A DNA stretch of 64,000 bases. Source: Ilumatobacteraceae bacterium. GTDB taxonomy: Bacteria; Actinomycetota; Acidimicrobiia; Acidimicrobiales; Ilumatobacteraceae. The notes below the pieces were generated by a model. The model searched no databases and was not told where the DNA came from. It saw nothing but the letters and a program-made list of their open reading frames with translations. This document shows positions 32,409 through 45,206 of this stretch, one piece after another (the first letter of the stretch is position 1; each line of letters begins with the position of its first letter). The stretch covers positions 3,249,595 to 3,313,594 of the forward strand of contig JAWPMO010000001.1 in assembly GCA_033344875.1 (NCBI GenBank), given 5' to 3'. Position numbers and translations under genes: made by a program.

Positions 32409-33350
32409 TCAGCCGAGCAGCGGGGCCACCCGTTCGGCGATGAGGTCGAGATGGTCGAGATCGGACAGGTCGAGGATCTGCAGGTAGATCCGCTCGGCGC
32501 CGGCCTCGATCCAACGTTGCATCGTCGCAGCCGCTTCGTCGGGTGTGCCGGCCACACCGTTCTCGCGCAGCTCGCTCGCGTCACGTCCGATGGCGGCGGC
32601 CCGCCGATCGACCTCGGCGTCGTTCTCGCCGACACAGCCGACCAGCGCGATCGAGTACACGAGGCTGTCGGGATCGCGTCCCTCGGTGTCGCACGCGCGC
32701 CGGACGTTGTCGCACTGGCTGGTGAACCGGTCGATCGACACGAACGGCATGTTGAACTCGGCGGCGTACCGAGCGGCGAGGCGCGGCGTGCGGGTCGCCC
32801 CGCCGCCGCCGATCAGGATCGGCGGTCCACCGGCCTGCACCGGTTTGGGCAGTGCGGGTGAGTCGGTGACCTGCCAGACGTCGCCGTCGTACGAGAACGT
32901 GTCGCCGTCAGGCGTGTTCCAGAGTCCGTGGATGATCGCGGTCTGTTCTTCGAGGTTGTCGAATCGTGCCCCGAGTTCGGGGAACGGGATGCCGTACGCC
33001 TCGTGCTCCTGCTGGTACCAACCGGCGCCGATGCCGAGTTCGACGCGGCCGTTCGACATCTGGTCGACCTGCGCGACCGAGATAGCGAGTGGCCCGGGGA
33101 GCCGGAACGTCGCCGCGGTGACCAGCGTGCCGAGGCGGATGGTCGACGTCTCGCGGGCGATGCCGCCGAGGGTGACCCAGGCGTCGGTCGGACCGGGGAG
33201 CCCGTCACCGTCGCCCATGCTGAGGTAGTGGTCGCTGCGGAAGAACGCGCCGAACCCGCACCGCTCGGCGCGCTGTGCCACGGCGAGCAGATCGTCGTAG
33301 GTCGCGCCCTGCTGTGGTTCGGTGAAGATGCGGATGTCGCCCAGTTGCAT
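32409..33350 (-). CDS. LLM-class F420-dependent oxidoreductase
   Basis: The 313-residue protein is a luciferase-like TIM barrel (ADLLAVAQRAERCGF-type first helix, RSDHYLSM, STIRLGTLVTAATFRLPGPLA, SNGRVELGIGAGWYQQEHEAYG, PPILIGGGGATRTPRLAARYA). These features are typical of actinobacterial enzymes using cofactor F420, though FMN use cannot be excluded. The substrate is unknown. ATG 33350 is chosen because TAGCGT lies 7 nt upstream; the frame's extension to 33704 lies over pyrE. Confidence 0.88.
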   Translation of the reverse strand: MQLGDIRIFTEPQQGATYDDLLAVAQRAERCGFGAFFRSDHYLSMGDGDGLPGPTDAWVTLGGIARETSTIRLGTLVTAATFRLPGPLAISVAQVDQMSNGRVELGIGAGWYQQEHEAYGIPFPELGARFDNLEEQTAIIHGLWNTPDGDTFSYDGDVWQVTDSPALPKPVQAGGPPILIGGGGATRTPRLAARYAAEFNMPFVSIDRFTSQCDNVRRACDTEGRDPDSLVYSIALVGCVGENDAEVDRRAAAIGRDASELRENGVAGTPDEAAATMQRWIEAGAERIYLQILDLSDLDHLDLIAERVAPLLG

Positions 33351-33357
33351 GCCGGCG

Positions 33358-33391
33358 ACGCTACCTCCGGCCTCGGCGCCGGAGCTAGCGT
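33358..33391. promoter_or_regulatory. Divergent overlapping promoters of LLM oxidoreductase and pyrE
   Basis: Minus-strand TAGCGT at 33358-33363 is 7 nt before ATG 33350. Plus-strand TAGCGT at 33386-33391 is 8 nt before ATG 33400. The same hexamer is used in both directions. Confidence 0.58.
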
Positions 33392-33399
33392 GCACGGCG

Positions 33400-33969
33400 A
33401 TGAGTGAGCTCCCCGCCCTGTCACCGACCCTCGAGGCCCTGCGGGCGCACGTGTTGGAGCACTCGGTCAAGCGGGGGGAGTTCACCCTCAAGTCGGGTGC
33501 CAGGTCGTCGTGGTTCCTCGACACGAAACAGACGGCGTGTCGGCCCGACGGGATCGTGCTCGTCGCCGACGCGATGCTCGACGTGATCCCCGACGACGCG
33601 ACGGCGATCGGCGGGCTGACGATGGGTGCCGACCCGGTGGCGTTCGGCGTCGCGGCGGTCGCGGCCACACGTGGCCGCAACCTGCGCAGCTTCAGCGTCC
33701 GCAAGGAGGCGAAGGATCACGGGGTCATGGGTCGACTCGCCGGAGCGATCCAGCCGGGCGACCGTGTGGTGATCACCGAGGACACGACCACCCGAGGATC
33801 CTCGTTGATGGAGGCGGTCGACGTGGTCCGTGAGTTCGGCGCGGTGCCGGTGCTCGTGTCGCTGATCGTCGACCGTGGCGACACCTGCGCCGCGATGTGC
33901 GCCGAGGCGGGCGTCGCCTATGCGCCGCTGTTGACGGCGGTCGACCTCGGCTTCCAGCCGGGGGACTGA
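33400..33969 (+). CDS. pyrE: Orotate phosphoribosyltransferase
   Basis: PyrE joins orotate to PRPP to give OMP in pyrimidine synthesis. The 189-residue protein shows GEFTLKSGARSSWFLDTKQT, GGLTMGADPVAFGVAAVAA, SVRKEAKDHGVMGRLAG and the PRPP-binding loop VVITEDTTTRGSSLMEAV. The loop reads EDTTTRGSS where EDVITTGGS is common, but the two acidic residues are kept. No other pyrimidine gene is adjacent. It ends 5 bp before the stop of the convergent prepilin-like gene. Confidence 0.9.
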   Translation: MSELPALSPTLEALRAHVLEHSVKRGEFTLKSGARSSWFLDTKQTACRPDGIVLVADAMLDVIPDDATAIGGLTMGADPVAFGVAAVAATRGRNLRSFSVRKEAKDHGVMGRLAGAIQPGDRVVITEDTTTRGSSLMEAVDVVREFGAVPVLVSLIVDRGDTCAAMCAEAGVAYAPLLTAVDLGFQPGD

Positions 33970-33974
33970 CCGCG

Positions 33975-35393
33975 CTATTCGCGGACGCGCAGTGAGCGCA
34001 CTGCGGTCGTGCCCTGGTCGTCGACCTGTACCACGGCGGTCATGGTGGTCGACTGGTTGTTGAGCGTGGCGGTGGAGTCGAGGCGCAACTCGAACGCGAT
34101 CGGTGAGGTCTCGACTCGGATGATGAACGACGACGCCGACGCCGACGCCTGGAGCACGATCCGCGACACGACAGCGCCGCCGAGGAGCTGACCATTCGCC
34201 GAGTTGGTCACGTTGCCGAACTCGAGTTGAGCCTTCGGCGCCCAGATCAGGCCGTGCATCGCGAGGTCGCTGTTGTTGCCGGACTTCGTGTAGATGACGT
34301 TGTCGTTGTAACCGAGCGTGCTGGCGGCGCGATCGGCGGTGCTGCTGGTGATCGCGTGCACGCTCACGAGCGAGTCGCCCTGGAGCCGGCGCAGGATCTC
34401 GAGGCTGCCCTTGTTGCCGATCTCGATCTTGCTCGAGCCACCGAGGTAGAAGGTGGCGCCGGGGGTCGACCCGACGGTCGAGCTGTCGTCCGAGACGGCG
34501 CCGTCACACGGCTCGTTGGCGATGAACTGCTGGTCGCCGTAGCGATCGAAGTCGGGCCAGCCGGCGGTCACCACGCTGTTCGTGACGTCGAGCGTCACGT
34601 TGTGGAAGTAGTAGTTGCCGCTCTTGAAGTAGGTGTTCGGGCCGAGTGCCGGCATCACCGTGTATCGCCCGGGCGAGAACACGGTGCACGTGCCGTTCAT
34701 CGTCGGTGCCGGATTGGTGTTGGCGATGTCACCGGCGCCGGGGAACGCGCCGACGGCGGGTTCCGTGTACACCTGGTCCCAGGTGCTCTCGACGCAGATC
34801 GTGCCGCGGTAGGCCGGCGTGAAGGTCAGGTTGGATTCGAGTGACAGCGGCGGCGAGGGGTTCTCGCAGTCGGGCCGGTAGTACCAGATGTCGCCGTCCT
34901 CGACCTCGACGGGCGATTTGAGGTCGGAGCGGCCGGGGTCGGTGATCCACACCGGCCCGCCGAGCAGCTTGGTCTTGCCGCCACCGGACTGGCTGCGCCA
35001 CATCCACTGGCCGTTCGGGACGCCTTGGCCGGTCACGACGATCGCCCAGGCCTTGATGTCGCCGATGCCGTTGGAACCCTTGGTGCAGGTGACCTCGACG
35101 TCGGCACCGTTGACCTGGACCGGAAAGTCGATCGAGAAGCCGCTGGTGCCGAGGTTGCTCAGGCAACCGGCGTACGCCGAGTTGCCCAGTCGTTCGATCG
35201 CGTAGCGCAGCCCGCCGTCGGCGGCCGCCAGTCGGTCGGCGCGTTCTTCGACGACCGTGCCGTACCTGAGGCTGGTGGTGACGTACGAGGCCAGCGACAT
35301 GACCACGACGGAGATCACGACCGCCATGACCAGGACGAGAACCAGGATGGCGCCGTCATCGCGTTCGCCGGAGGTGTGCGTTCGAGAGCTCAT
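33975..35393 (-). CDS. PilX-like exported protein (set 2, X position)
   Basis: The 472-residue protein starts with a short basic/charged leader and a hydrophobic helix (DDGAILVLVLVMAVVISVVV) without the G/FTLxE prepilin site, as in PilX-type proteins. The C-terminal half is beta-rich, with ATFYLGGSSKIEIGN, DLAMHGLIWAPKAQLEFGN and QLLGGAVVSRIVLQAS, resembling the polymer-forming or choice-of-anchor-like domains often attached to PilX. ATG 35393 overlaps the preceding prepilin stop as ATGA; the frame's extension to 36431 is an artefact. It is the last gene of the V-W-X set 2. Confidence 0.82.
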   Translation of the reverse strand: MSSRTHTSGERDDGAILVLVLVMAVVISVVVMSLASYVTTSLRYGTVVEERADRLAAADGGLRYAIERLGNSAYAGCLSNLGTSGFSIDFPVQVNGADVEVTCTKGSNGIGDIKAWAIVVTGQGVPNGQWMWRSQSGGGKTKLLGGPVWITDPGRSDLKSPVEVEDGDIWYYRPDCENPSPPLSLESNLTFTPAYRGTICVESTWDQVYTEPAVGAFPGAGDIANTNPAPTMNGTCTVFSPGRYTVMPALGPNTYFKSGNYYFHNVTLDVTNSVVTAGWPDFDRYGDQQFIANEPCDGAVSDDSSTVGSTPGATFYLGGSSKIEIGNKGSLEILRRLQGDSLVSVHAITSSTADRAASTLGYNDNVIYTKSGNNSDLAMHGLIWAPKAQLEFGNVTNSANGQLLGGAVVSRIVLQASASASSFIIRVETSPIAFELRLDSTATLNNQSTTMTAVVQVDDQGTTAVRSLRVRE

Positions 35394-36697
35394 TTGGGGT
35401 TCACCGTCAATGTGGTTGTCGCGAGGAGGTTGTCGAAGCCGTCGCGGACTTCGAGCGTGTGCGTGCCGGTGGCCCACAACTCGGTGCCGTGCGGGTGGCC
35501 GTAGAGCGTGATGTCGTACGGAGCGGCGTTGCCGAGGTTCTGGACGTACTGGCTGTTGGGTGCGCCGGTGTCGTACTGGAGGGTGAGCCCGACGCAGTAG
35601 CCACCGGTGACGTTGACGAGGATGTCGACGTCGTCGGCGAGCTTGCTGGGCGAGCTGTTGAACTTCTGCTTGACCGACCCCGGGTTGACCGAGATGCCCG
35701 ACACGACGCACGGCGGCAACGTGGTCGTCGTCGTGGTGGTCGACGTCGAGGTCGTCGTGGTGGTCGTCGTCGCAGCGGCGGTGATGTTCACGGTCAGCGT
35801 TGAGGTGGCGGTGGCGCCGCTGTTGTCGGTGACCTCGTAGGTGAGCGCGTAGGTGCCCGGTGCGTCGACCGCGACGAGGTCGACGGCGGTGCCGTTCGTC
35901 GTGGCGACCCATCCGGCCGGGAGCGAGCCGATGCTGGACGACACGATCGTGCCGTCGCTGTCGGTCGCGTCGAGCGTCATGGCGCTGAGGACACTCGCAT
36001 TGACGGTCCACGTGGTCGGATTGGCGACCGGAGCGGCGTTCGGGATCGTCGTGGTCGTGGTCGACGTCGTGGTCGTCGACGGGTTGGTGACGTTCGGGGG
36101 CAGCGTCTCGGCCGGGTTCTTGGAGGCGGCATCGATGTAGACGACCTCGCCGGAGAACGTCTCGATCGTGATCTTCAGTTGGTCGACGTCGCCGTCGCCG
36201 TTGCTGTCGTACAGGTCGACGACCGGCAGCGTCGAGCTCAATTGGGCGGTCATGGTGAGCACGGAAGGGCTGCTGAGTGAGAACTGGCCCGAGCAGGTCA
36301 CGCGTTGGATGTAGCCACCGTCGGCGTCGGGCACGTAGCGGTAGTTGGCGACGTAGTTCGTGATCGACCCGTAGAACTCCTCGAACCACGTCATGTGGAC
36401 GACGTTGATGCCGGCGTCGGTGCCGGCGCACCCGGAGGGCGTGCCGGGATCGATGTCGAACGCGCCCGGCTCGGTCGAGTCGACATCGGGCGGCAGGAAG
36501 GTGGTGATGCCCTGCACGGCGATGGAACTGTCGGCCCGACTGGTGACGTTGGGCGCGGTGCGAATGCTCGTGATGATCGCCATGGTCACCACTGAGACGA
36601 GCATCGCCATGAGGGTGATCGCGATCATCAACTCGGGGAGGGTGAAGCCGCGGTCGCTCACGCGGCCCGACGCTGCAGATGGCGTGCGTGGGTTCAC
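35390..36697 (-). CDS. Prepilin-like protein with Ig-like module and Thr-rich linkers (set 2, W position)
   Basis: The 435-residue protein has a type IV prepilin N-terminus: SDRG/FTLPELMIAITLMAM, with cleavage predicted after Gly17. A pilin-like domain of about 190 residues leads to a first Thr run. An Ig/cadherin-like module follows (LDATDSDGTIVSSSIGSLP, GTYALTYEVTDNSGATATS), then a second Thr run and a C-terminal beta domain with TLEVRDGFDNLLATTTLTV. The stop overlaps the next start as ATGA. The Thr runs are likely O-mannosylation sites, an inference from actinobacterial biology. Confidence 0.85.
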   Translation of the reverse strand: MNPRTPSAASGRVSDRGFTLPELMIAITLMAMLVSVVTMAIITSIRTAPNVTSRADSSIAVQGITTFLPPDVDSTEPGAFDIDPGTPSGCAGTDAGINVVHMTWFEEFYGSITNYVANYRYVPDADGGYIQRVTCSGQFSLSSPSVLTMTAQLSSTLPVVDLYDSNGDGDVDQLKITIETFSGEVVYIDAASKNPAETLPPNVTNPSTTTTSTTTTTIPNAAPVANPTTWTVNASVLSAMTLDATDSDGTIVSSSIGSLPAGWVATTNGTAVDLVAVDAPGTYALTYEVTDNSGATATSTLTVNITAAATTTTTTTSTSTTTTTTTLPPCVVSGISVNPGSVKQKFNSSPSKLADDVDILVNVTGGYCVGLTLQYDTGAPNSQYVQNLGNAAPYDITLYGHPHGTELWATGTHTLEVRDGFDNLLATTTLTVNPK

Positions 36698-37221
36698 TTG
36701 ACGATCTCCACCGACTCGATGATCTTGTTGTTCGTGCTCCGGACCTCGAGCTGGATCAGTTGCAGCGTGAGGCTCGGGTCGCAGTCGCTGCCGAAGAAGA
36801 ACTCGATGTCCGGATCGGCGTCGATGTTGGCGGAGTTCCAGAACTGCACCGGCCCGACGACGCGAATCTGCCAGTCCTTCCAGTCCTGCGGATTGGGTAC
36901 ACCGTCGACGACCGTCTCGTAGGCGGCCCGGACGAACGCCTCGCCGTTGTCGGGCTGCGACGAGTCACAGGAGACCTTGGGGGCGGCGTAGAGGATGTCG
37001 GAAGCGGACTGGAGCCAGCCGTGGGCGTTGGAGTGGTCGCGGTGGAGCGTCCCGGCGATGGTGGTGGCACGCAGGGTCGCCATCGTCCCGGCGATCACGC
37101 CGCCGATCAGGACGACGGCGATCAGGATCTCGATGATGGTGACACCGCCGTCGCGTGGACGAGGGTGGTGGCGTACGCGTCCAGCGCGGGCTGCCCGGGC
37201 GAACCCGTGTGGTCGTGGCAT
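36694..37221 (-). CDS. Prepilin-like protein (set 2, V position)
   Basis: The 175-residue protein has a 26-residue basic leader and the prepilin site RDGG/VTIIEILIAVVLIGGV with Glu at position +5, followed by a compact beta domain (FFFGSDCDPSLTLQLIQLEV) with two Cys. It is PilV-like and the first gene of set 2; its stop overlaps the W-gene start as ATGA. It is the simplest pilin of the set and a candidate tip or initiation subunit. Confidence 0.83.
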   Translation of the reverse strand: MPRPHGFARAARAGRVRHHPRPRDGGVTIIEILIAVVLIGGVIAGTMATLRATTIAGTLHRDHSNAHGWLQSASDILYAAPKVSCDSSQPDNGEAFVRAAYETVVDGVPNPQDWKDWQIRVVGPVQFWNSANIDADPDIEFFFGSDCDPSLTLQLIQLEVRSTNNKIIESVEIVK

Positions 37222-37269
37222 GCCATGACATCGCCCTGCGTCGCTCGGGCTTGAGGCAATTCGCGAAGA

Positions 37270-37275
37270 ATTGTA
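37270..37275 (-). promoter_or_regulatory. Possible -10 box for prepilin set 2
   Basis: TACAAT on the minus strand, about 50 bp upstream of the V-like start and just downstream of the larA-like stop. It would give set 2 its own promoter. The -35 is not clear. Confidence 0.4.
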
Positions 37276-37287
37276 CGGATATCGCGG

Positions 37288-38526
37288 TTATGCCGACGAG
37301 GAGGGAGCGAGCGCGTCGCTCACGAGGCACGAGGTGAGGTGCAGGGTGCTCTCGATCCGGACCACACGCTTCGGTTCATCCGGCCCGCGTCCGCACATCG
37401 ACAACGCTGCTTTCACGCACGCTTCCTCGTCGGGGAGCACCATCGGCATCCGGGCGCGACGCATGCCGGCCGGGCCGGCGGTGAAGCAGTTGATGTACGT
37501 CTTGCGGAAATCGAGGCGGTTCGCGAGCGATGCCGGGATGAAGTCGGCGAACCCCATGCCGAGCGCGTTGCCGCCGCTGACGTCGGTCAGGTCGAGCAGG
37601 ACGATGGCGCCGACCCGCGGCGTCTCCAGGTCGTCGAGGCCCGGCACCCAGAAACGCCCGGTGACGTTCGGGTCCATCGTCGTGCCGCTGATGTCCTTGC
37701 CGCCCCGTTCGATGATCAGGACGTCGATCTCGTCGAACGGCAATGCCGGGACCAGCGTTCGCGAGTACTCGGTGAGCTCGTGCTCGAGGTCGGTGCCGAC
37801 GTCGCCGGCTCCCAGCCCGGCGATCCGGACGATGTCGCCCGCCGTCGACTCGATCGACCCGATGCCGCCCAACAGCCGTCCGGTGCCGCGTAGCGCGGCG
37901 CAGGCGGCGAGCAGCCGGTCGCGCATCTCGATCGGCCCACACGAGTGCACCAGGGCCGCGCCGGGCTGTTTGCCGAAGCCGACGACCGCCATCTTCATGC
38001 AACCCGATTCGACCGGGCCCTTGAAGCAGGTGTGCGGCTTGATCCGGTTGACCGGCAGGAAGCGGTCGGCGCCGGCGGCGTTGGCGTCGAGGTGGACCGG
38101 CGTGCCCGCTTCGGTGTGGGCCACGATGACGGTGTCCATCGTGGCCCGGATCTCGGCGCCGACCGTCGCCTCGGTGATGCCGAGTTCGCTCAGGATGTGG
38201 AGTTGCCCCTCGGCGGTCGCCCCGCCGTGCGAGCCCATCGCCGGGACGACGAACGGTTCGGCGCCGAGTTCACGCAGGGCCGAGATCGTGCCACGAACGA
38301 GATCGACCCGACCGGTGAGCCCACGCGATCCGGCGCCGACCGCGACGGTCATGCCCGGTGTGATCGTGTCGCGGAACGTGTTCAGCGCGGCGTCGTACGC
38401 GCCGCGTTCGATGTCGGGAACCGCAGGAGGCGTTGGCACGTCGAGCGGATACGGGTGCAGCTCCGGAATCGTGAGCCCCTCCGCGAACGGCAGCTCCACC
38501 CCCGACACCAACTGCTCCCACGACAT
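37288..38526 (-). CDS. LarA-type (DUF2088) nickel-pincer-like isomerase
   Basis: The 412-residue protein matches the LarA N-terminal (DUF2088) family. It has VAVGAGSRGLTGRVD for the phosphate/cofactor loop, VPAMGSHGGATAEGQ with the first conserved His, and NRIKPHTCFKGPVESGCMKM with the Lys and His that hold the nickel-pincer cofactor in lactate racemase. LarA homologues racemise or epimerise hydroxy acids. No larB, larC or larE is present in the window, so the cofactor source is unknown. ATG 38526 is chosen over GTG 38532 because TAGGCT lies exactly 7 nt before it. It splits the two prepilin sets. Confidence 0.82.
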   Translation of the reverse strand: MSWEQLVSGVELPFAEGLTIPELHPYPLDVPTPPAVPDIERGAYDAALNTFRDTITPGMTVAVGAGSRGLTGRVDLVRGTISALRELGAEPFVVPAMGSHGGATAEGQLHILSELGITEATVGAEIRATMDTVIVAHTEAGTPVHLDANAAGADRFLPVNRIKPHTCFKGPVESGCMKMAVVGFGKQPGAALVHSCGPIEMRDRLLAACAALRGTGRLLGGIGSIESTAGDIVRIAGLGAGDVGTDLEHELTEYSRTLVPALPFDEIDVLIIERGGKDISGTTMDPNVTGRFWVPGLDDLETPRVGAIVLLDLTDVSGGNALGMGFADFIPASLANRLDFRKTYINCFTAGPAGMRRARMPMVLPDEEACVKAALSMCGRGPDEPKRVVRIESTLHLTSCLVSDALAPSSSA

Positions 38527-38533
38527 GGTCACG

Positions 38534-38539
38534 AGCCTA
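38534..38539 (-). promoter_or_regulatory. -10 box for the LarA-type gene (leaderless)
   Basis: TAGGCT on the minus strand, followed by 7 nt and ATG 38526. It decides between two possible starts. Confidence 0.55.
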
Positions 38540-38593
38540 TTCGGCGGTGGGACCGGGCACCCTCCAGGAGGTTGGCCACCTCATGCCCGGCGT

Positions 38594-39793
38594 TCAGGGC
38601 GGATTGATCATCGAACACGTGAACGTGTCGTTCAGAATCAGCTTCTGACCGTTCGGACCGTTCTCGAGCGTGGCAGATGCGATGAACGTCGGACCTTGGT
38701 TGGGCGTGACCGACTCGTTGCTCGCGTCGCTGTCGATGACGTAGGCCGACCCGCCGACACCGACCGGCCCGGGCCACGTGAAGTCCCAAGGCCCGCCGTA
38801 CTTGATGCGACTGACGCTGAGTTGCCAGCCGGTGAACGCCCCGCCACTCGTGTTCGACAGCGACAGGGTCCCGGCACCGCTCTTTCCGCCGTTGTTGACC
38901 GAGCTGATCCGGAACTCGCAATCGGGGTTCGGAGCGATGGTGGTGGTCGTGGTCGTCGACGACGTGGTCGTGGTGGTCGTACTCGGCGGCGTCGTCGATG
39001 TGACGATCTGGATCGTGGACGATGCCGTCGCGCCACCGTCATCGGTGACCGTGTAGTCCAGGTTGTACGTGCCGTCGCTGCTAGCGAAGAACGTGAACGA
39101 ACTCGGTCCAGCCGACACGATGCTGTCGAGACCGGCCGGCAGTGGCGTGGTGTCGATCGTGGCGCTGACGATCGTGCCGTCGCTGTCGAACGCATCGAGC
39201 ACGGCGGTCACCGAGCTCCCGGTTGCGCCGACCCAGTTCGTCGGATTGGCGGTCGGTGCCGCGTTGGCGATGGTCGTGCTCGTGGTGGTGGTCGCGCTCG
39301 GGATCGACGTCGTCGTGGTGACGTACGCAGGGACGTCGATCGGGATGTCGACACGCCAGTCGGCGATGCGGGCCCCATGCGTGTACTTGGGCACCTCGAC
39401 CGTGGCCTCGACGGTGCGCGGCGCGCCACCTGACGGTGTGACCCGAGCGACGAGGTGGACCATGGGTTCGGTCGCGATCGGGGTGGTCTGTGAGCACGTG
39501 AGAGTCGCCGTGTAACCGTTCGGGAGCAGTGCGGTCGGAACGACGATCGGCTGGCTGGCTGGTGCGTCCCCGCAGTCGGCGTCCGGCAGGAGCTGCTTCT
39601 TCGAGAACTGCTCGATCGCCCACGACATGGTGGCAGATGCATCGGCGTTGGTGTCGGTGCGTTGTGTGGCGACCGACGAGGTCTTCAGGCCGGTCGTGGC
39701 GAAGTTGGCGATCGCGATCACGACGACGGCGAGGATGACCGTGAACACCAGGGTCAGAACGAGGATCGTGCCGCCGTCGCGGTGCTTCACCAT
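38594..39793 (-). CDS. PilX-like exported protein with Ig-like module (set 1, X position)
   Basis: The 399-residue protein starts MVKHRDGGTILVLTLVFTVILAVVVI, a PilX-like signal helix without a prepilin FTLxE site. A short beta region is followed by a Thr run and then an Ig/cadherin-like module (LDAFDSDGTIVSATIDTTPLP, YNLDYTVTDDGGATASSTI) closely similar to the one in the set 2 W protein. A second Thr run and a C-terminal beta domain with two Cys follow (CEFRISSVNNGGKSGAGTL to NDTFTCSMINPP). It overlaps the W gene by 7 bp from ATG, or as GTGA from GTG 39790. Confidence 0.82.
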   Translation of the reverse strand: MVKHRDGGTILVLTLVFTVILAVVVIAIANFATTGLKTSSVATQRTDTNADASATMSWAIEQFSKKQLLPDADCGDAPASQPIVVPTALLPNGYTATLTCSQTTPIATEPMVHLVARVTPSGGAPRTVEATVEVPKYTHGARIADWRVDIPIDVPAYVTTTTSIPSATTTTSTTIANAAPTANPTNWVGATGSSVTAVLDAFDSDGTIVSATIDTTPLPAGLDSIVSAGPSSFTFFASSDGTYNLDYTVTDDGGATASSTIQIVTSTTPPSTTTTTTSSTTTTTTIAPNPDCEFRISSVNNGGKSGAGTLSLSNTSGGAFTGWQLSVSRIKYGGPWDFTWPGPVGVGGSAYVIDSDASNESVTPNQGPTFIASATLENGPNGQKLILNDTFTCSMINPP

Positions 39794-41370
39794 CCGAAGA
39801 TCCCCTCGAAGCTGAAGGAGGCGTTCAGCGACGACCCGCTCATGTAGAACTCGCTGGCGATGACCCCGCCTTTGATCGAGATCGTGCTGGTCACGACCGA
39901 GTACGGAGCCATGATCGTGCCGTCGACAGTGCTGGCTCCGGCTCCGGCCACGACGTTGACAACGTCGGCGTTGGGAAAGTTCCAGACGACGTGTACGGAT
40001 GCGCTACCGATCCCGACGAGCGTCGGAGGATTGAAGGTGATCGTGCCCCCGATCTGACTGCCGACATTGATGACCACCGGGGTGTTCTGGTTGATCTGGC
40101 TCGGTGGAAAGTTGAGCTGGATCGACTCGAGATCCAGGAGGTTCGCTTCCTCGAGATTGAGCACGTTGACCTGATTCGGCACCAACGTCAGATCGAGTTG
40201 TGGGCCGCCCGCCGACGCCGTGCCGGGGTAGCCGGTCGGGAGACCGACGTGAGAGGCGCACGCTCCGTTCTTGCAGCTGTCGGGCAGCGCCGCCATCCGG
40301 TCGGAGCAAGACCGCAGCTCGATGAACGCCGCCCCGGGCGGTACGGGGAGGTCGGTGCCGACCGGAGCGATGATCTGACCGCCCGATCCCTGCAGGCTGA
40401 TACGTGGTGTGCCGCCTGCTTCGGAGATCGGGCCGCTGCTGCCACCGACGTAGTTTCCGTCTTGCACGACGGCATCGGTGCCGCTCCGGACCCTGAGGGT
40501 TCCGGACGAAGCCGACCATCCGACGCTGTTCGCGAAGAGCCCGACGTTGTTGTATGGAGACCCCGGGCCCAGATCGGGTGGGTTGGCGTTGCTCTGTGCC
40601 ACATCGGGCTCGCCTTCGAACGTGAGTGTGCCGCCGACGTAGAGGCTGCTCTTGACCGCCGTGCCGTCGAGATGGACATCACCTTCGATGAACGTGTCGA
40701 TGTTCTTGGTTGCTCCGAGAGGATCGGGGCCGCACACGCCGCTCGACGACAGCGGAAGTTCTTCGCGCGGAGCGGCCTGGATGGTCTCGACGTCGCCACG
40801 CTGGACGTAGCGGACCTCGACACCCGTCACCTGCTGGTCGACGATGGGCGCTGCAGGGTTCGAGACCAGCACAGTCGCCTCGGCGATCGGCGAGGCGGTG
40901 CCGTCGAGCGCATCGGCAACGTTGAGCACCGAGGTCGAGTTCCAGGTCGTGCCGTCGAACTCGCACACGAGTCGATCGATCCGGGCGGTCTCGCCGGTCG
41001 ACACGATCTGGTAGGCGATTCGACGGTCGACGACCGTGAGCCGCCGATCGGTGACGTCGATCCGCAGCACGTTCTCGTTGCCGACGTCGTCGCACCCACT
41101 GCCGCGGTCGCCGGCTGCGCCTCCGGTGGCCGCTCGGTACGCGTCGGCTCGGCTGGGTCCGGACGCCACGTCCAGCGGGACGTAGCTGACGATCTGCTGG
41201 GTGTCGTGCGACTCCGAGGTGCTGGACACGACGCCGTCACCATTGCGCAGGATGACGATGATGGCGGCTGCGATCACCGATGACATCAAACCGATCACGA
41301 CGATGGTCACGACGACCTCGACGAACGTGAAGCCTTCGTCGGGGCGGCGAGCAGGACGGTGGTTGGTCAT
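39787..41370 (-). CDS. Prepilin fused to choice-of-anchor-A-like domain (set 1, W position)
   Basis: The 527-residue protein has a prepilin N-terminus (RPDEG/FTFVEVVVTIVVIGLM, cleavage after Gly13) and a pilin-like domain to about residue 215. The rest is a choice-of-anchor-A-like beta domain: EGDVHLDGTAVKSSLYVGG, VNVLNLEEANLLDLESIQL, VHVVWNFPNADVVNVVAGAG, VDGTIMAPYSVVTST and GGVIASEFYMSG. Such domains occur on large surface adhesins. ATG 41370 overlaps the V-gene stop as ATGA; the frame's extension to 42120 is not credible. A pilin carrying this domain would display it along or at the tip of a fibre. Confidence 0.83.
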   Translation of the reverse strand: MTNHRPARRPDEGFTFVEVVVTIVVIGLMSSVIAAAIIVILRNGDGVVSSTSESHDTQQIVSYVPLDVASGPSRADAYRAATGGAAGDRGSGCDDVGNENVLRIDVTDRRLTVVDRRIAYQIVSTGETARIDRLVCEFDGTTWNSTSVLNVADALDGTASPIAEATVLVSNPAAPIVDQQVTGVEVRYVQRGDVETIQAAPREELPLSSSGVCGPDPLGATKNIDTFIEGDVHLDGTAVKSSLYVGGTLTFEGEPDVAQSNANPPDLGPGSPYNNVGLFANSVGWSASSGTLRVRSGTDAVVQDGNYVGGSSGPISEAGGTPRISLQGSGGQIIAPVGTDLPVPPGAAFIELRSCSDRMAALPDSCKNGACASHVGLPTGYPGTASAGGPQLDLTLVPNQVNVLNLEEANLLDLESIQLNFPPSQINQNTPVVINVGSQIGGTITFNPPTLVGIGSASVHVVWNFPNADVVNVVAGAGASTVDGTIMAPYSVVTSTISIKGGVIASEFYMSGSSLNASFSFEGIFGW

Positions 41371-41984
41371 GGTCCGTTGATTCCCGGTGTCGGTGAGACG
41401 GTTGCCTGTCCAGAACCACCGGAGAAGGGCGGCACGGGCGGGGCCGGCACGGTGTCGGCGGTCGGCACGTCGTTGGGGCGCTTGACCACGACGACTTCCT
41501 TGACGGTGCCGTCGACGACCGTCGAGATGGTGAGCTGTTGGAGTCGGTCGCCCTGGGCGTAGCGGCAACCGGCAACGAACGCGCCGCCGGCGCCCGCTGT
41601 GCGATCCCAGTTGGCAACCGAAACAGTCACCGACTGCGGGGGCGGGAACAATGTGGTGAGCACGGCCTGATAACTGGCCTGCGGGTTGCTGTCGCAGTCG
41701 ACGTAGGGGAGGGCTTCGGGCTCGGTGTCGGTGGCGAGATCGGCGGCCTCGGCCAGGAGCGCCTGACTTTGAGCGACGCGGTCGTGGACTCGGGCGCCGA
41801 CGATGGTCGCCTGGAGAGCGGTCAGCACAGCAATACCGACCGTGCCGAGCAGGACGACCGAGACCAGGACCTCGATGAAGGTCGCGCCCAGGTCGCGCCG
41901 CGGGGCATCGATCGATCGCGACCGCACCGCCGATCCCGTCTGGGATCCACGATCGCGTCGTGAGGTGGTGCCGGTGTCGGCCAT
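41367..41984 (-). CDS. Prepilin-like protein (set 1, V position)
   Basis: The 205-residue protein has a 33-residue basic leader and the prepilin site RDLG/ATFIEVLVSVVLLGTV with Glu at +5, then a beta domain with two Cys and a Pro/Gly-rich C-terminus. ATG 41984 (MADTGTTSR) is selected by AAGGA shortly upstream; ATG 42113 would give a leader of over 70 residues. It is first in prepilin set 1 and divergent from the MMPL transporter gene. Confidence 0.8.
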   Translation of the reverse strand: MADTGTTSRRDRGSQTGSAVRSRSIDAPRRDLGATFIEVLVSVVLLGTVGIAVLTALQATIVGARVHDRVAQSQALLAEAADLATDTEPEALPYVDCDSNPQASYQAVLTTLFPPPQSVTVSVANWDRTAGAGGAFVAGCRYAQGDRLQQLTISTVVDGTVKEVVVVKRPNDVPTADTVPAPPVPPFSGGSGQATVSPTPGINGP

Positions 41985-42158
41985 GTGGTCGTCCTTGATG
42001 GTGGTCTGTGTCGACGACGTGTAGCTCGAGAGAGCCAGGTCCGCCGCCCGCACCAACGACTGTACTCGCGCGATCGCGCCCTTGTCCCGCGGAACATCGC
42101 GAAACGTGGCCATGCGTCACCCTCTGCGCGCGCGGAGTGAGGGTGACGGCACATGGCG

Positions 42159-42164
42159 TACGCT
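42159..42164 (+). promoter_or_regulatory. -10 box for the MMPL gene (leaderless)
   Basis: TACGCT followed by exactly 6 nt and ATG 42171. It argues against the upstream ATG 42153, which lies before the box. Confidence 0.55.
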
Positions 42165-42170
42165 CACTTC

Positions 42171-45100
42171 ATGGAATCTTTCTGGAGGGCCACCGGAATC
42201 AACCTGGGGAAGTACTGGAAGGCCGTGGCGGCCGCCGTGGTGGCCGTCACCGCGATCCTCGCGATCGGGCTCACACAGGTTGAGTTCGCGACCGGTCAGG
42301 ACAGCTACCTGAACCCGGAGTCGCAGATCGCGCTCGACAACGTCGAGTTCCAGGAGAACTTCGGTGGGGAGACGGTCATCTTGTTGATGTCGGCCAACGA
42401 GGACGGTGTCGACGTCGCCGACCTGGTCGGTCCGGCGAACCTCTCGGCACTCGAGCAACTCACCGCTGAACTCGAGGCGGTCGACAACGTGTTCTCGGTG
42501 ATCACACCGCCGGTGTCGTTGACGTTCAGCGACGAACTGATCAAGGGTCCGGGCCGGGCCGCGTTGATCGCCGCCGCAGGTCGTGATGCCGACGGTGGTG
42601 AGGCCCGCGGTGCCGACATCCAGGTCGGTCTCGCCAGGCTCGCCGAGGTCGACGACCAAACCCTCGGCAACCCGGCGTGGAACGACGTGCTCATCTACGG
42701 CAACGACGGATTCGAACTCACCGACGGCGAGCTGACCGCCCCGGCCGACGACGAGCGTGCGATCCGGCTGTCGCTGGCCGGCACGTTCCCCGACGCACAG
42801 ACCGCCGTGGCCGGTGTGGTGCTCGACGGCAACCTCGATCTCGATGCCCAATCGCTCGCGACCGAGGAGGTGCTCGACCTCCTGGAGGGCGTCGACCTCG
42901 AGGGCTTTGACCTGACGGTCACCGGCTCGCCGGTGTACCTCAAGGAGATCAACGACTACCTCAAGGGTGGGATGCTCACCCTCGGTGCGATCGCACTCGG
43001 TGTGATGGCGCTCGTGCTCGGTCTCATGTTCCGGGTGCGGTGGCGCCTGCTCCCGCTGCTCGCCGTGCTGATCGGCGTGCTGTGGACGTTCTCGATCCTC
43101 GGCCTGATCGGCATCGACCTGAGCCTCGTCACGATCTCCGGCCTGCCGATCCTGATCGGTCTCGGCATCGACTTCGCGATCCAGATCCACAACCGAGTCG
43201 AGGAAGAGCAGGTCCTCGATCATGACGAGCACCCGATCGCGGAGACGGTCTCGAACCTGGCACCCCCGCTGATCGTCGCGGCCATCGCCGGCATCGTCGC
43301 ATTCCTCGCCCTGCAGTTGTCGAAGGTGCCGATGATCCGTGACTTCGGCGTGCTGCTCGCGATCGGCGTGCTCGTGCTCGTGGCCGTCGGCATCGTCGTG
43401 CCGGCGTCGATCCTCGGCATTCGTGAGTGGACGACGCCGACCGACGATCGTGGTGACTCGCTGGTCGAACGCATCGTGGTCAAGCTCGGCGGGTTGCCGA
43501 CCAAGGCCGGTATCGGCCTCGTACTCGCGTCGGTCGTGCTGTTCGTCGGCGGGATCCTCGTCGAGGGCCGCACCAAGATCGAGAGCGACCCGGTCAAGTG
43601 GATCGACCAGGGCTCCGAGGTCGTCGCCGACATCGAGCGGCTGGAGAACGAGACCGGGTTCGGCACCACGCTCGGTGTCCTCGTGCAGGCCAACAACGTG
43701 TACGACCAGGACGTCATCGACCTGGTGCACGAGTTCACCATCGCGGCCGAAGCGCGCGACGACGTGGTGGCGTCGTCGAGCCTCGTGAACACGATGGCCA
43801 AGATCATCACGATTCCCGGTGCCACCGTGATCCCACCGACGGAGGAGGAGATCGCGGGGGCCGCAGGTGTCATGCCCGAAGCGATCGCGCGGGCGCTGGT
43901 CAACGACGGCCAGACCGCCGCACAGGTCAACCTGCGGCTCGCGCCGGCGAGCCTCGAGGAGCGCGCCGTACTCGTCGACGAGTTGCGCGACGACCTCGAC
44001 GCGCGCCTCGCCGACCTGCAACTCGACCCCGACAGCATCCTGTTGACCGACCTGCCCGCCGATCAGGAACCCGTCAGGGTCACGCCGGCGGGTCTCGCCA
44101 CCGTCGGCATCGGTCTGCTCGAGAACCTGTCCGCCAACCGTGCGGCGCTCACCTACCTGTCGCTGTGTCTCGCCGGGCTGTGGCTCGTGCTCCGCTTCCG
44201 CAGCTTGAGCCGGGCCCTGCTCGCGCTGGTGCCGGTGTTCCTGGCGGTCGGAGCGTCGTCGCTGATCGTCGGTCTCGTCGGTATCCAGCTCAGCCCGCTG
44301 ACGACGGTGTCGGGTCCGCTCGTCATCGCCAGCTGTACCGAGTTCTCGGTGCTGATCTTCGGCAGATACCTGGAGGAACGACAGACAGGTCTGGCCTCGC
44401 GCCTCGCGAGCGACACGGCCGCTGCGCGTACCGGCCGAGCGTTCTTCACCTCGGCCGCGACGACGATCGGCGGGTTCGCCGTGTTGATGATCTCGCCGCT
44501 GCCGCTGCTGCGTGACTTCGGCCTGATCGTGACGCTCAACGTGGCCATCGCCCTGATGGCGGCACTCATCGTGATGCCGCCGATCATGGTGTGGGTCGAC
44601 GACCGCGGTTGGCTCGGCATCGAGCCGCAGGTCGATCCGAACCGGTCGGTCCGTCTCGCCGCCCCGGTGCCCGGAGATCAGACCGTGCTGGCGGGAGTCG
44701 GCGCAGTGGCCTTCATCGGTGCCGCCGCCGGCGTGTACGCGTCGGCCGACACGTCACAGGGAGATGCCACCACGGTCGAGTACGCCTCGGTCGCGCTCCC
44801 CACCACGACGACGACCGTGGCGCCCACCACGACGACCACGGTTCCGCCCACGACGGTCCCGCCGACGACGGTCGAAGGCGAGGAACCGCCGCCGTCGACC
44901 GAGGCGCCGGCCACGACCGAACCGTCCGGCCCCGTGATCGATCCGGCCGACTTCCCCGACACCGTGCCCGCCGGGGTGTTCGCTCCGGCGCTGTTCGGAC
45001 TGCTGACCGACGCGGGCCTCCCCGGCAACACGGCCAATTGCGTGATCGCGACCTCGTTCGAGCGGGGTGGCGGCGAGGAGACGCTCGTGCCGCTCCTCCT

Positions 45101-45206
45101 GGCGAGCGACCCGACCGCACTCGAGACCGTGCGGCAGGCCGGCGCCGACTGCGGTGCCCCAGCCGACCAGGTCGACGCCGCGATCGCCGCCGGCACCGGC
45201 GGCTGA
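42171..45206 (+). CDS. MMPL/RND-family (HAE3) transporter with Thr-rich tail domain
   Basis: The 1,011-residue protein has two RND repeats, each an extracytoplasmic loop domain plus a bundle of helices. The GxxxDY-like segments of the family appear as LPILIGLGIDFAIQIHNR and, in the second half, GPLVIASCTEFSVLIFGRYL. The second has no Asp in the first's position, a difference from the usual repeat. An additional helix near residue 845 (VGAVAFIGAAAGVYA) is followed by Thr/Pro linkers (TTTTTVAPTTTTTVPPTT) and a final domain of about 85 residues with two Cys. HAE3/MMPL proteins export lipids or hopanoids; the substrate here is unknown. Confidence 0.88.
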   Translation: MESFWRATGINLGKYWKAVAAAVVAVTAILAIGLTQVEFATGQDSYLNPESQIALDNVEFQENFGGETVILLMSANEDGVDVADLVGPANLSALEQLTAELEAVDNVFSVITPPVSLTFSDELIKGPGRAALIAAAGRDADGGEARGADIQVGLARLAEVDDQTLGNPAWNDVLIYGNDGFELTDGELTAPADDERAIRLSLAGTFPDAQTAVAGVVLDGNLDLDAQSLATEEVLDLLEGVDLEGFDLTVTGSPVYLKEINDYLKGGMLTLGAIALGVMALVLGLMFRVRWRLLPLLAVLIGVLWTFSILGLIGIDLSLVTISGLPILIGLGIDFAIQIHNRVEEEQVLDHDEHPIAETVSNLAPPLIVAAIAGIVAFLALQLSKVPMIRDFGVLLAIGVLVLVAVGIVVPASILGIREWTTPTDDRGDSLVERIVVKLGGLPTKAGIGLVLASVVLFVGGILVEGRTKIESDPVKWIDQGSEVVADIERLENETGFGTTLGVLVQANNVYDQDVIDLVHEFTIAAEARDDVVASSSLVNTMAKIITIPGATVIPPTEEEIAGAAGVMPEAIARALVNDGQTAAQVNLRLAPASLEERAVLVDELRDDLDARLADLQLDPDSILLTDLPADQEPVRVTPAGLATVGIGLLENLSANRAALTYLSLCLAGLWLVLRFRSLSRALLALVPVFLAVGASSLIVGLVGIQLSPLTTVSGPLVIASCTEFSVLIFGRYLEERQTGLASRLASDTAAARTGRAFFTSAATTIGGFAVLMISPLPLLRDFGLIVTLNVAIALMAALIVMPPIMVWVDDRGWLGIEPQVDPNRSVRLAAPVPGDQTVLAGVGAVAFIGAAAGVYASADTSQGDATTVEYASVALPTTTTTVAPTTTTTVPPTTVPPTTVEGEEPPPSTEAPATTEPSGPVIDPADFPDTVPAGVFAPALFGLLTDAGLPGNTANCVIATSFERGGGEETLVPLLLASDPTALETVRQAGADCGAPADQVDAAIAAGTGG

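Follow-up and report, generated by a model that had tools for sequence, protein, structure and literature searches.

Paralogous V-W-X prepilin triplets with a mosaic immunoglobulin-like module: probable alternative tips of one type IV pilus in an Ilumatobacteraceae bacterium

We analysed a 64,000-nucleotide stretch of DNA (the window) from an Ilumatobacteraceae bacterium (GenBank assembly GCA_033344875.1, contig JAWPMO010000001.1, positions 3,249,595 to 3,313,594), whose 4.97 Mb genome lies on one contig. The window carries two triplets of prepilin genes on the minus strand, each in the order V-W-X: set 1 spans positions 41984-38594 and set 2 positions 37221-33975. Neighbouring prepilin genes overlap by 4-7 nt (4 nt for W1, 7 nt for X1, and 4 nt each for W2 and X2), and frames and coordinates thus confirm the two parallel, overlapping sets described in the initial annotation of this DNA. 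Absent from that annotation was a gene on the same strand that separates the sets (38532-37288), encoding a nickel-pincer nucleotide isomerase of group 22 (LarA superfamily; NF052515, 2.5e-124, over cut-off). By sequence, all six prepilins begin with a short charged leader ending in Gly, followed by a hydrophobic helix. The Pfam N_methyl model was passed by W2 (26.1 bits) and by W1 in the genome scan (19.0 of 21.2 bits in the protein scan); V1 and V2 fell below its cut-off, and X1 and X2 were not listed. Glu5 is present in V1, W1, V2 and W2, and in neither X1 nor X2.

The first gene of set 1, V1 (41367..41984), encodes a PilV/GspI-like prepilin whose PilV and GspI matches are weak and below cut-off. 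W1 (39787..41370), in the PilW/GspJ position, consists of a pilin part and a C-terminal adhesive module (residues about 217-512; 39835..40722), which passes the cut-offs of both pAdhesive_15 (PF20597; Pfam, 1.1e-26) and choice_anch_A (TIGR04215; NCBIfam, 4.4e-21), so that the earlier assignment of a choice-of-anchor-A-like domain to this protein holds. X1 (38594..39793), in the PilX/GspK position, gave no solenoid match; it has a short pilin part, a Thr-rich linker, an immunoglobulin-like (Ig) module of Big_9-like type (39005..39265), a second Thr-rich linker and a C-terminal tail (38597..38932). The tail gave no CBM_2 match in Pfam; profile comparison with hhalign returned probabilities of 87% against six CBM2-type tails and 60% against four Pfam-confirmed ones, with controls at 0.2-2.4%, which weakly supports a divergent CBM2-like domain.

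Set 2 opens with V2 (36694..37221), followed by W2 (35390..36697, GTG start), which passes both N_methyl and Big_9 and repeats the layout of X1: pilin part, Thr-rich linker, Ig module (35786..36040), Thr-rich linker and tail (35393..35716). This tail recurs in several W proteins of set 2 type and belongs to no Pfam family; as in X1, the extra domain behind the second linker had not been annotated before. The two tails were compared as candidates for the same domain and this was rejected (hhalign 0.2%). The third prepilin, X2 (33975..35393), carries a beta-solenoid (residues about 114-433; 34095..35054). Its AlphaFold model, built from 7 sequences (predicted local distance difference test score, pLDDT, 75; predicted template modelling score 0.65), runs from a long helix through a strand (97-110) and the solenoid to three last strands (434-471). 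The solenoid is therefore inserted in the pilin fold in the model, whereas the modules of W1, X1 and W2 come after the pilin part. It resembles DUF7305 (PF23981) at 5.4e-4 and 20.3 bits, below the Pfam cut-off of 27, and the modelled insert superimposes on the ice-binding protein LeIBP (3uyv) with a VIA-align Z of 12.5 over 197 residues at 3.2 A. Of the anchor-like beta domain previously ascribed to X2, the beta architecture is thus borne out by the model and the anchor A family is not, the solenoid being DUF7305-like and giving no anchor A profile match. X2 relatives in named records come from five contigs of metagenome-assembled genomes (two Ilumatobacter, two Acidimicrobiaceae and one Actinomycetes); by sequence, solved relatives were chance matches or matched the prepilin helix only.

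The Ig modules of X1 and W2 had been described as the same module, and they do form one family, 47% identical over a 91-column alignment. Against the Big_9 cut-off of 23.6 bits, W2 scores 27.3, X1 22.7, just under it, and the X1 orthologue in relative G001 29.6. Within W2, the Ig module stands apart from its surroundings: compared with the W2 orthologue of G003, identity is 66% in the pilin part, 36% in the Ig module and 62% in the tail, and compared with that of G009 it is 51%, 37% and 59%. With the X1 Igs of G001 and of the window itself, this Ig module shares about 46% identity; the corresponding figure is 48% between the W2 Igs of G003 and G009, and 38% between the two X1 Igs. In a tree of 16 Igs, the window W2 Ig groups with the two X1 Igs (support 92/97). 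Approximately unbiased (AU) tests rejected a tree constrained to unite the W2 Ig of the window with those of G003 and G009, both with 16 Igs (p 0.0038) and with 25 Igs from the genus, 25 of 27 matches being used (p 0.0049); the orthology expectation was drawn from the W tree, and the Ig tree had already been seen before the test. The W2 Ig is therefore mosaic, not orthologous to the Igs of the W2 orthologues and nearest to X1-type copies, and does look exchanged. On sequence, the Ig module appears to have moved between X1-type and W2-type proteins. The two Ig genes share a 33-nt stretch of 91% identity and the Thr-rich linkers on both sides of the Ig in both proteins are repetitive DNA, which makes recombination a plausible route. 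A transfer from X1 to W2 would be favoured solely because the other W2 Igs resemble each other.

The genome holds at least four V-W-X triplets, sets 3 and 4 (L011 and L013) lying at about 3.40 and 3.95 Mb, which places them some 0.1 and 0.7 Mb from the window sets. In both, W has a VWA-like domain that stays below the Pfam threshold, and X a DUF7305-like solenoid by our own profile, with additional fn3 and Ig parts in X3. Searches with W1 and X2 in 120 close genomes, plus the window's own, yielded 40 triplets, one of them without V at a contig end. Left out were 17 groups of one, two or four prepilin open reading frames (contig ends, single pilins or other orders); an extra pilin frame was removed by hand in L081, L091 and L093, and L082, L084 and L090 were split. 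X bears a DUF7305-type solenoid in 33 of the 40 triplets, the accompanying W being of VWA type in 20 and carrying an Ig and tail, or nothing recognised, in 13. The combination of pAdhesive on W with an X lacking the solenoid occurs in 6 triplets, neither feature in one and both in none. In trees of V (39 rows), W (40) and X (40), the six rows of set 1 type form one clade in each (97/96, 100/100 and 99/97), as do the VWA-type rows (97/95, 92/82 and 100/98); set 2-type rows form one clade in W (95/88) and X (76/82). Because the three trees each recover the same type clades, the triplets have mostly been inherited as units.

Across 395 sampled genomes of the class, the X-solenoid was found at E <= 1e-15 in 8, seven matching over nearly the whole profile (families f1, f29, f66 and f78) and one partially (f81). 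W-pAdhesive over the whole profile occurred in 2 of the 395, G000 and G001, both of the window's genus; among 221 genomes of the family it was full in G000, G001 and G004 and present as pieces in G006 and G003. Since the X-solenoid occurs in several families of the class and W-pAdhesive in that 395-genome sample only in the window's genus, a solenoid-bearing X probably came first. Set 1 would then probably form a derived clade, with no solenoid recognised on X and an adhesive domain from a different family on W. CBM2-like tails also vary in position among set 1-type triplets, being carried by V or by X depending on the triplet. C-terminal CBM2 domains over the Pfam cut-off were found on V-type prepilins of L074 (11739-12878) and L078 (11060-12190), as V tails of their set 2. 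The set 1 X tail of L074 matches CBM_2 below cut-off (2.9e-4), the X1 tails of the window and G001 resemble CBM2 by profile comparison only, and CBM2 is unsupported for the set 1 V tail of L078 (0.4% and 1.8%). The idea that CBM2 belongs to all set 1-type triplets was dropped, as two V tails passed Pfam out of six tails.

Further proteins with these modules lie apart from the triplets. A lone prepilin (L012, 7085-8302, at 0.15 Mb in the genome) combines two CBM2 domains with an extended linker of Thr/Ala/Pro repeats. In G001, a complete relative, L096 (6710-8299) is a pAdhesive_15 protein without a prepilin match, a possible donor type for the W1 module. Loci L110-L123 were annotated outside the count and trees. 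L110, L111 and L114 encode W-type proteins with pAdhesive in open frames of 1196-1606 residues and a gene order other than V-W-X, those of L110 and L111 also showing, by eye, an Ig-like part and a second solenoid-like stretch. In L112 of G003 (61-1481), just the C-terminal half of a pAdhesive module comes after a set 1-type V; it looks as though W1 is shortened there, or the assembly broken at the contig end. A search for W1 relatives in viral contigs gave 31 pattern matches and no true relative.

The tip of the type II secretion system (T2SS) pseudopilus is encoded in the gene order GspI-GspJ-GspK. Like GspI-J-K and PilV-W-X tip complexes, the triplets consist of three adjacent minor-pilin genes, the third lacking Glu5: this residue is present in 38 of the 39 V proteins and 39 of the 40 W proteins, both exceptions being cut by contig ends, and absent from X in all 40 triplets, one flag in the scan proving spurious by eye. 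A K subunit without Glu5 is described in a published account (PMC9934059). We claim likeness to these complexes and not membership of their sequence families. The genome has one two-domain PilC-type T2SSF gene, beside two T2SSE ATPases and an A24 peptidase. Because this is the only two-domain PilC-type gene found, alternative tips on one fibre are likelier than two fibres, and we consider it probable, judging from genes and domains, that the V-W-X triplets are alternative modular tips of one type IV pilus; the fold comparison, in which no K-type subunit stands out, takes a little from this probability.

In such a system, each triplet would act as a minor-pilin priming and tip complex of the GspI-J-K / PilV-W-X type, with the ligand-binding part grafted onto the pilins. 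The prepilin peptidase would cleave the leaders, V and W, which have Glu5, and X, which lacks it and would hence be topmost, would assemble and initiate the fibre, and the single PilB-PilC machine would polymerise the major pilin below, the expressed triplet deciding the tip. A set 1 tip would display the choice-of-anchor A adhesive domain on W and an Ig stalk with the CBM2-like tail on X; a set 2 tip, a ComZ/ice-binding-type solenoid within X and an Ig stalk with its tail on W; and the tips of sets 3 and 4, a VWA-like domain on W and a solenoid on X. As to ligands, glycans for the anchor A and CBM2-like parts, and DNA or surfaces for the solenoid, are guesses.

Several observations weigh against this interpretation. 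No PilV, PilW, PilX or GspI-J-K model was passed by the window prepilins, V1 reaching 16.6 of 52.2 bits for PilV and X2 11.9 of 25.5 for PilX_N. The X2 pilin part scores well against GspK/XcpX structures (VIA-align Z 10.0 for 9a1f_T, 9.6 for 3ci0_K, 9.4 for 6utu_C and 8.0 for 5vtm_X) and equally high, at Z 9.5, against Streptococcus sanguinis PilA, which its authors compared with GspI; the modelled X2 pilin part is thus a tip-type pilin in which K is not singled out. The superposition of X2 on ComZ has a Z of 9.7 over 266 residues with a root-mean-square deviation of 10.0 A, and although the first seven Foldseek ranks for the X2 model include ice-binding proteins and ComZ, none reached E <= 0.001 (best 0.14). 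A model of the W1 module, built from one sequence, failed and was discarded (pLDDT 38), which leaves the Pfam family name as the basis for the W1 fold. Having been collected by searches with W1 and X2, the 40 triplets are not a random sample, and set 2-type rows do not form one clade in the V tree. In G027, G060 and G002, the W-type protein with pAdhesive is far longer and the gene order differs; a single long open frame contains both pilin and pAdhesive parts in G027 and G060, and the G002 protein is similar. In G027 and G060 a second solenoid-like stretch is visible by eye, and all three are outside the counts. Finally, the genome-wide machine count was based on T2SSF, and the other T2SSF genes (two adjacent pairs, at 0.32 Mb and at 3.92 Mb, and one more gene at 2.74 Mb) might belong to other machines.

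These last genes would fit two separate fibres or pseudopili with one triplet each, for instance a secretion pseudopilus and a pilus, as would the equal closeness of the X2 pilin part to T2SS GspK and to a pilus pilin. However, there is no second two-domain PilC/GspF gene, the two adjacent pairs and the single T2SSF being by inference Tad-type, and Myxococcus xanthus runs three minor-pilin clusters on one machine (PMC7541494). We therefore regard two fibres as decidedly unlikely. Of the two fibres or two tip complexes originally suggested, the tip-type triplets stand.

The origin of the modules admits two further explanations. One, that sets 1 and 2 are sisters whose W and X accessory domains were swapped, the beta domain one way and the Ig the other, would extend the exchange of displays first proposed for this locus. 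Its Ig half fits a single Ig family that is mosaic in W2 and departs from the orthology of the W tree. Both beta domains are also ice-binding-like, W1 by Pfam family name and X2 by model, and hhalign places their last coils in register, without significance. Yet the comparisons made to test a reciprocal beta-domain swap gave no significant match: in the whole-protein comparison of W1 with X2 the signal helix alone aligned, and domain against domain the probability was 0.6%, with the last coils alone aligning. Profile searches place pAdhesive_15 and the DUF7305-like solenoid in different sequence families, one domain follows the pilin part and the other interrupts it, sets 1 and 2 fall in different triplet clades, and X proteins with the solenoid occur in other families of the class. 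The two beta domains thus appear to share at most a fold class, the reciprocal exchange is largely refuted for the beta domain, and as a whole it is highly improbable. The other explanation, in which all the modules came separately from a pool of surface-protein domains and the Ig likeness reflects only a common, fast-evolving family, is unlikely, if more serious. Big_9-type modules do occur in other large proteins of the genus, and in the 25-Ig tree the grouping of W2 and X1 Igs collapses (p 0.36 versus the free tree), so that only the rejection of orthology stands. In that tree, however, the W2 Ig is nearest by path to the two X1 Igs (1.08 and 1.28), the G009 W2 Ig (1.70) and a non-pilin module (1.83) being farther, and both the rejected orthology with the G003 and G009 W2 Igs and the repetitive linkers flanking the Ig on both sides speak against this explanation.

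Alternative modular tips on one pilus have parallels in known systems. In S. sanguinis, modules grafted onto a three-pilin tip do the binding (PMC8179133, PMC9934059). PilA-PilB-PilC there share with our triplets a tip complex of three minor pilins, effector modules on the pilins (VWA and lectin in S. sanguinis) and the lack of PilY1, here at the V-W-X loci, no genome-wide PilY1 search having been made. Unlike S. sanguinis, the present genome has four paralogous sets, with solenoid, Ig, CBM2-like and anchor A modules, and in set 2 the solenoid is inserted in the third subunit. Thermus thermophilus ComZ, a proposed tip DNA receptor, has GspK and an ice-binding protein as its nearest folds and its insert between the penultimate and last strands (PMC6561018). 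The X2 model shares with it an ice-binding-protein-type beta-solenoid inserted into the pilin sheet and the same nearest folds; it differs in its insertion point, and ComZ was not among the 5 sequence matches found. In M. xanthus, three minor-pilin/PilY1 clusters serve one type IVa pilus machine and cluster 1 or 3 alone suffices for pili (PMC7541494). Common to both is the presence of several complete minor-pilin sets with one machine, here inferred from genes; there, the adhesin is a separate PilY1 and each cluster has FimU, whereas here V, W and X stand alone with modules fused to the pilins. With T2SS GspI-GspJ-GspK, the triplets share three minor pilins, a K-position subunit without Glu5 and with a bulky insert, and a similar pilin fold; unlike here, the GspK insert is helical, and no secretion role is indicated for the triplets.

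The window sets sit between an RND/MMPL-type transporter gene (42153..45206, plus strand) upstream and pyrE (33322..33969, plus strand; TIGR00336, over cut-off) downstream. A single contig carries both flanks in the window, G001, G007 and G002, and separate contigs carry them in G003, G005 and G034; for G006 and G032 the pyrE side alone was available. Beside the transporter, the slot is occupied by set 1-type genes in the window, in G001 and, as fragments, in G003, and by set 2-type genes in G007, G002 and apparently G005, where genes are split between contigs; in G006 a set 1-type W-X pair adjoins pyrE. This address therefore holds different triplets in different relatives, and we propose that triplets are replaced at this fixed chromosomal site. 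Two sets flank the isomerase gene in the window, G001 and G007. In G003 and G005 it has a full set on one side and prepilin genes at contig ends on the other; it follows X in G034 and is close by in G002, and it had no match in the other loci examined, many of which end early. Put together, and tentatively, the RND-pyrE interval may be a tip cassette locus at which whole triplets are replaced between species, while modules hop from subunit to subunit through Thr-rich linkers with the content of the complex kept, set 1-type triplets bearing a beta-solenoid-type domain on W instead of X and the CBM2-like tail on V or X. The cell might equip a single pilus with any one of four interchangeable tips, and the isomerase might supply or modify a sugar-acid ligand or pilin glycan tied to them; that all these parts hold jointly is possible but doubtful.

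Among the literature matches listed, we found nothing on Ilumatobacter or Acidimicrobiia pili, no mention of choice-of-anchor, pAdhesive or ice-binding-like domains, and none of domain shuffling, module exchange or domain swapping, which is not a claim of absence from print. Modular three-pilin tips are already known from S. sanguinis. The triplets would represent modular pilins used as exchangeable three-gene tip kits in Acidimicrobiia and offer a natural set of complexes with the same kind of display module on different subunits. Two questions thereby become testable: whether the minor pilins V, W and X offer equivalent mounting points at the tip of a type IV pilus, and whether solenoid tips like that of ComZ are a more general solution and not an oddity of Thermus.

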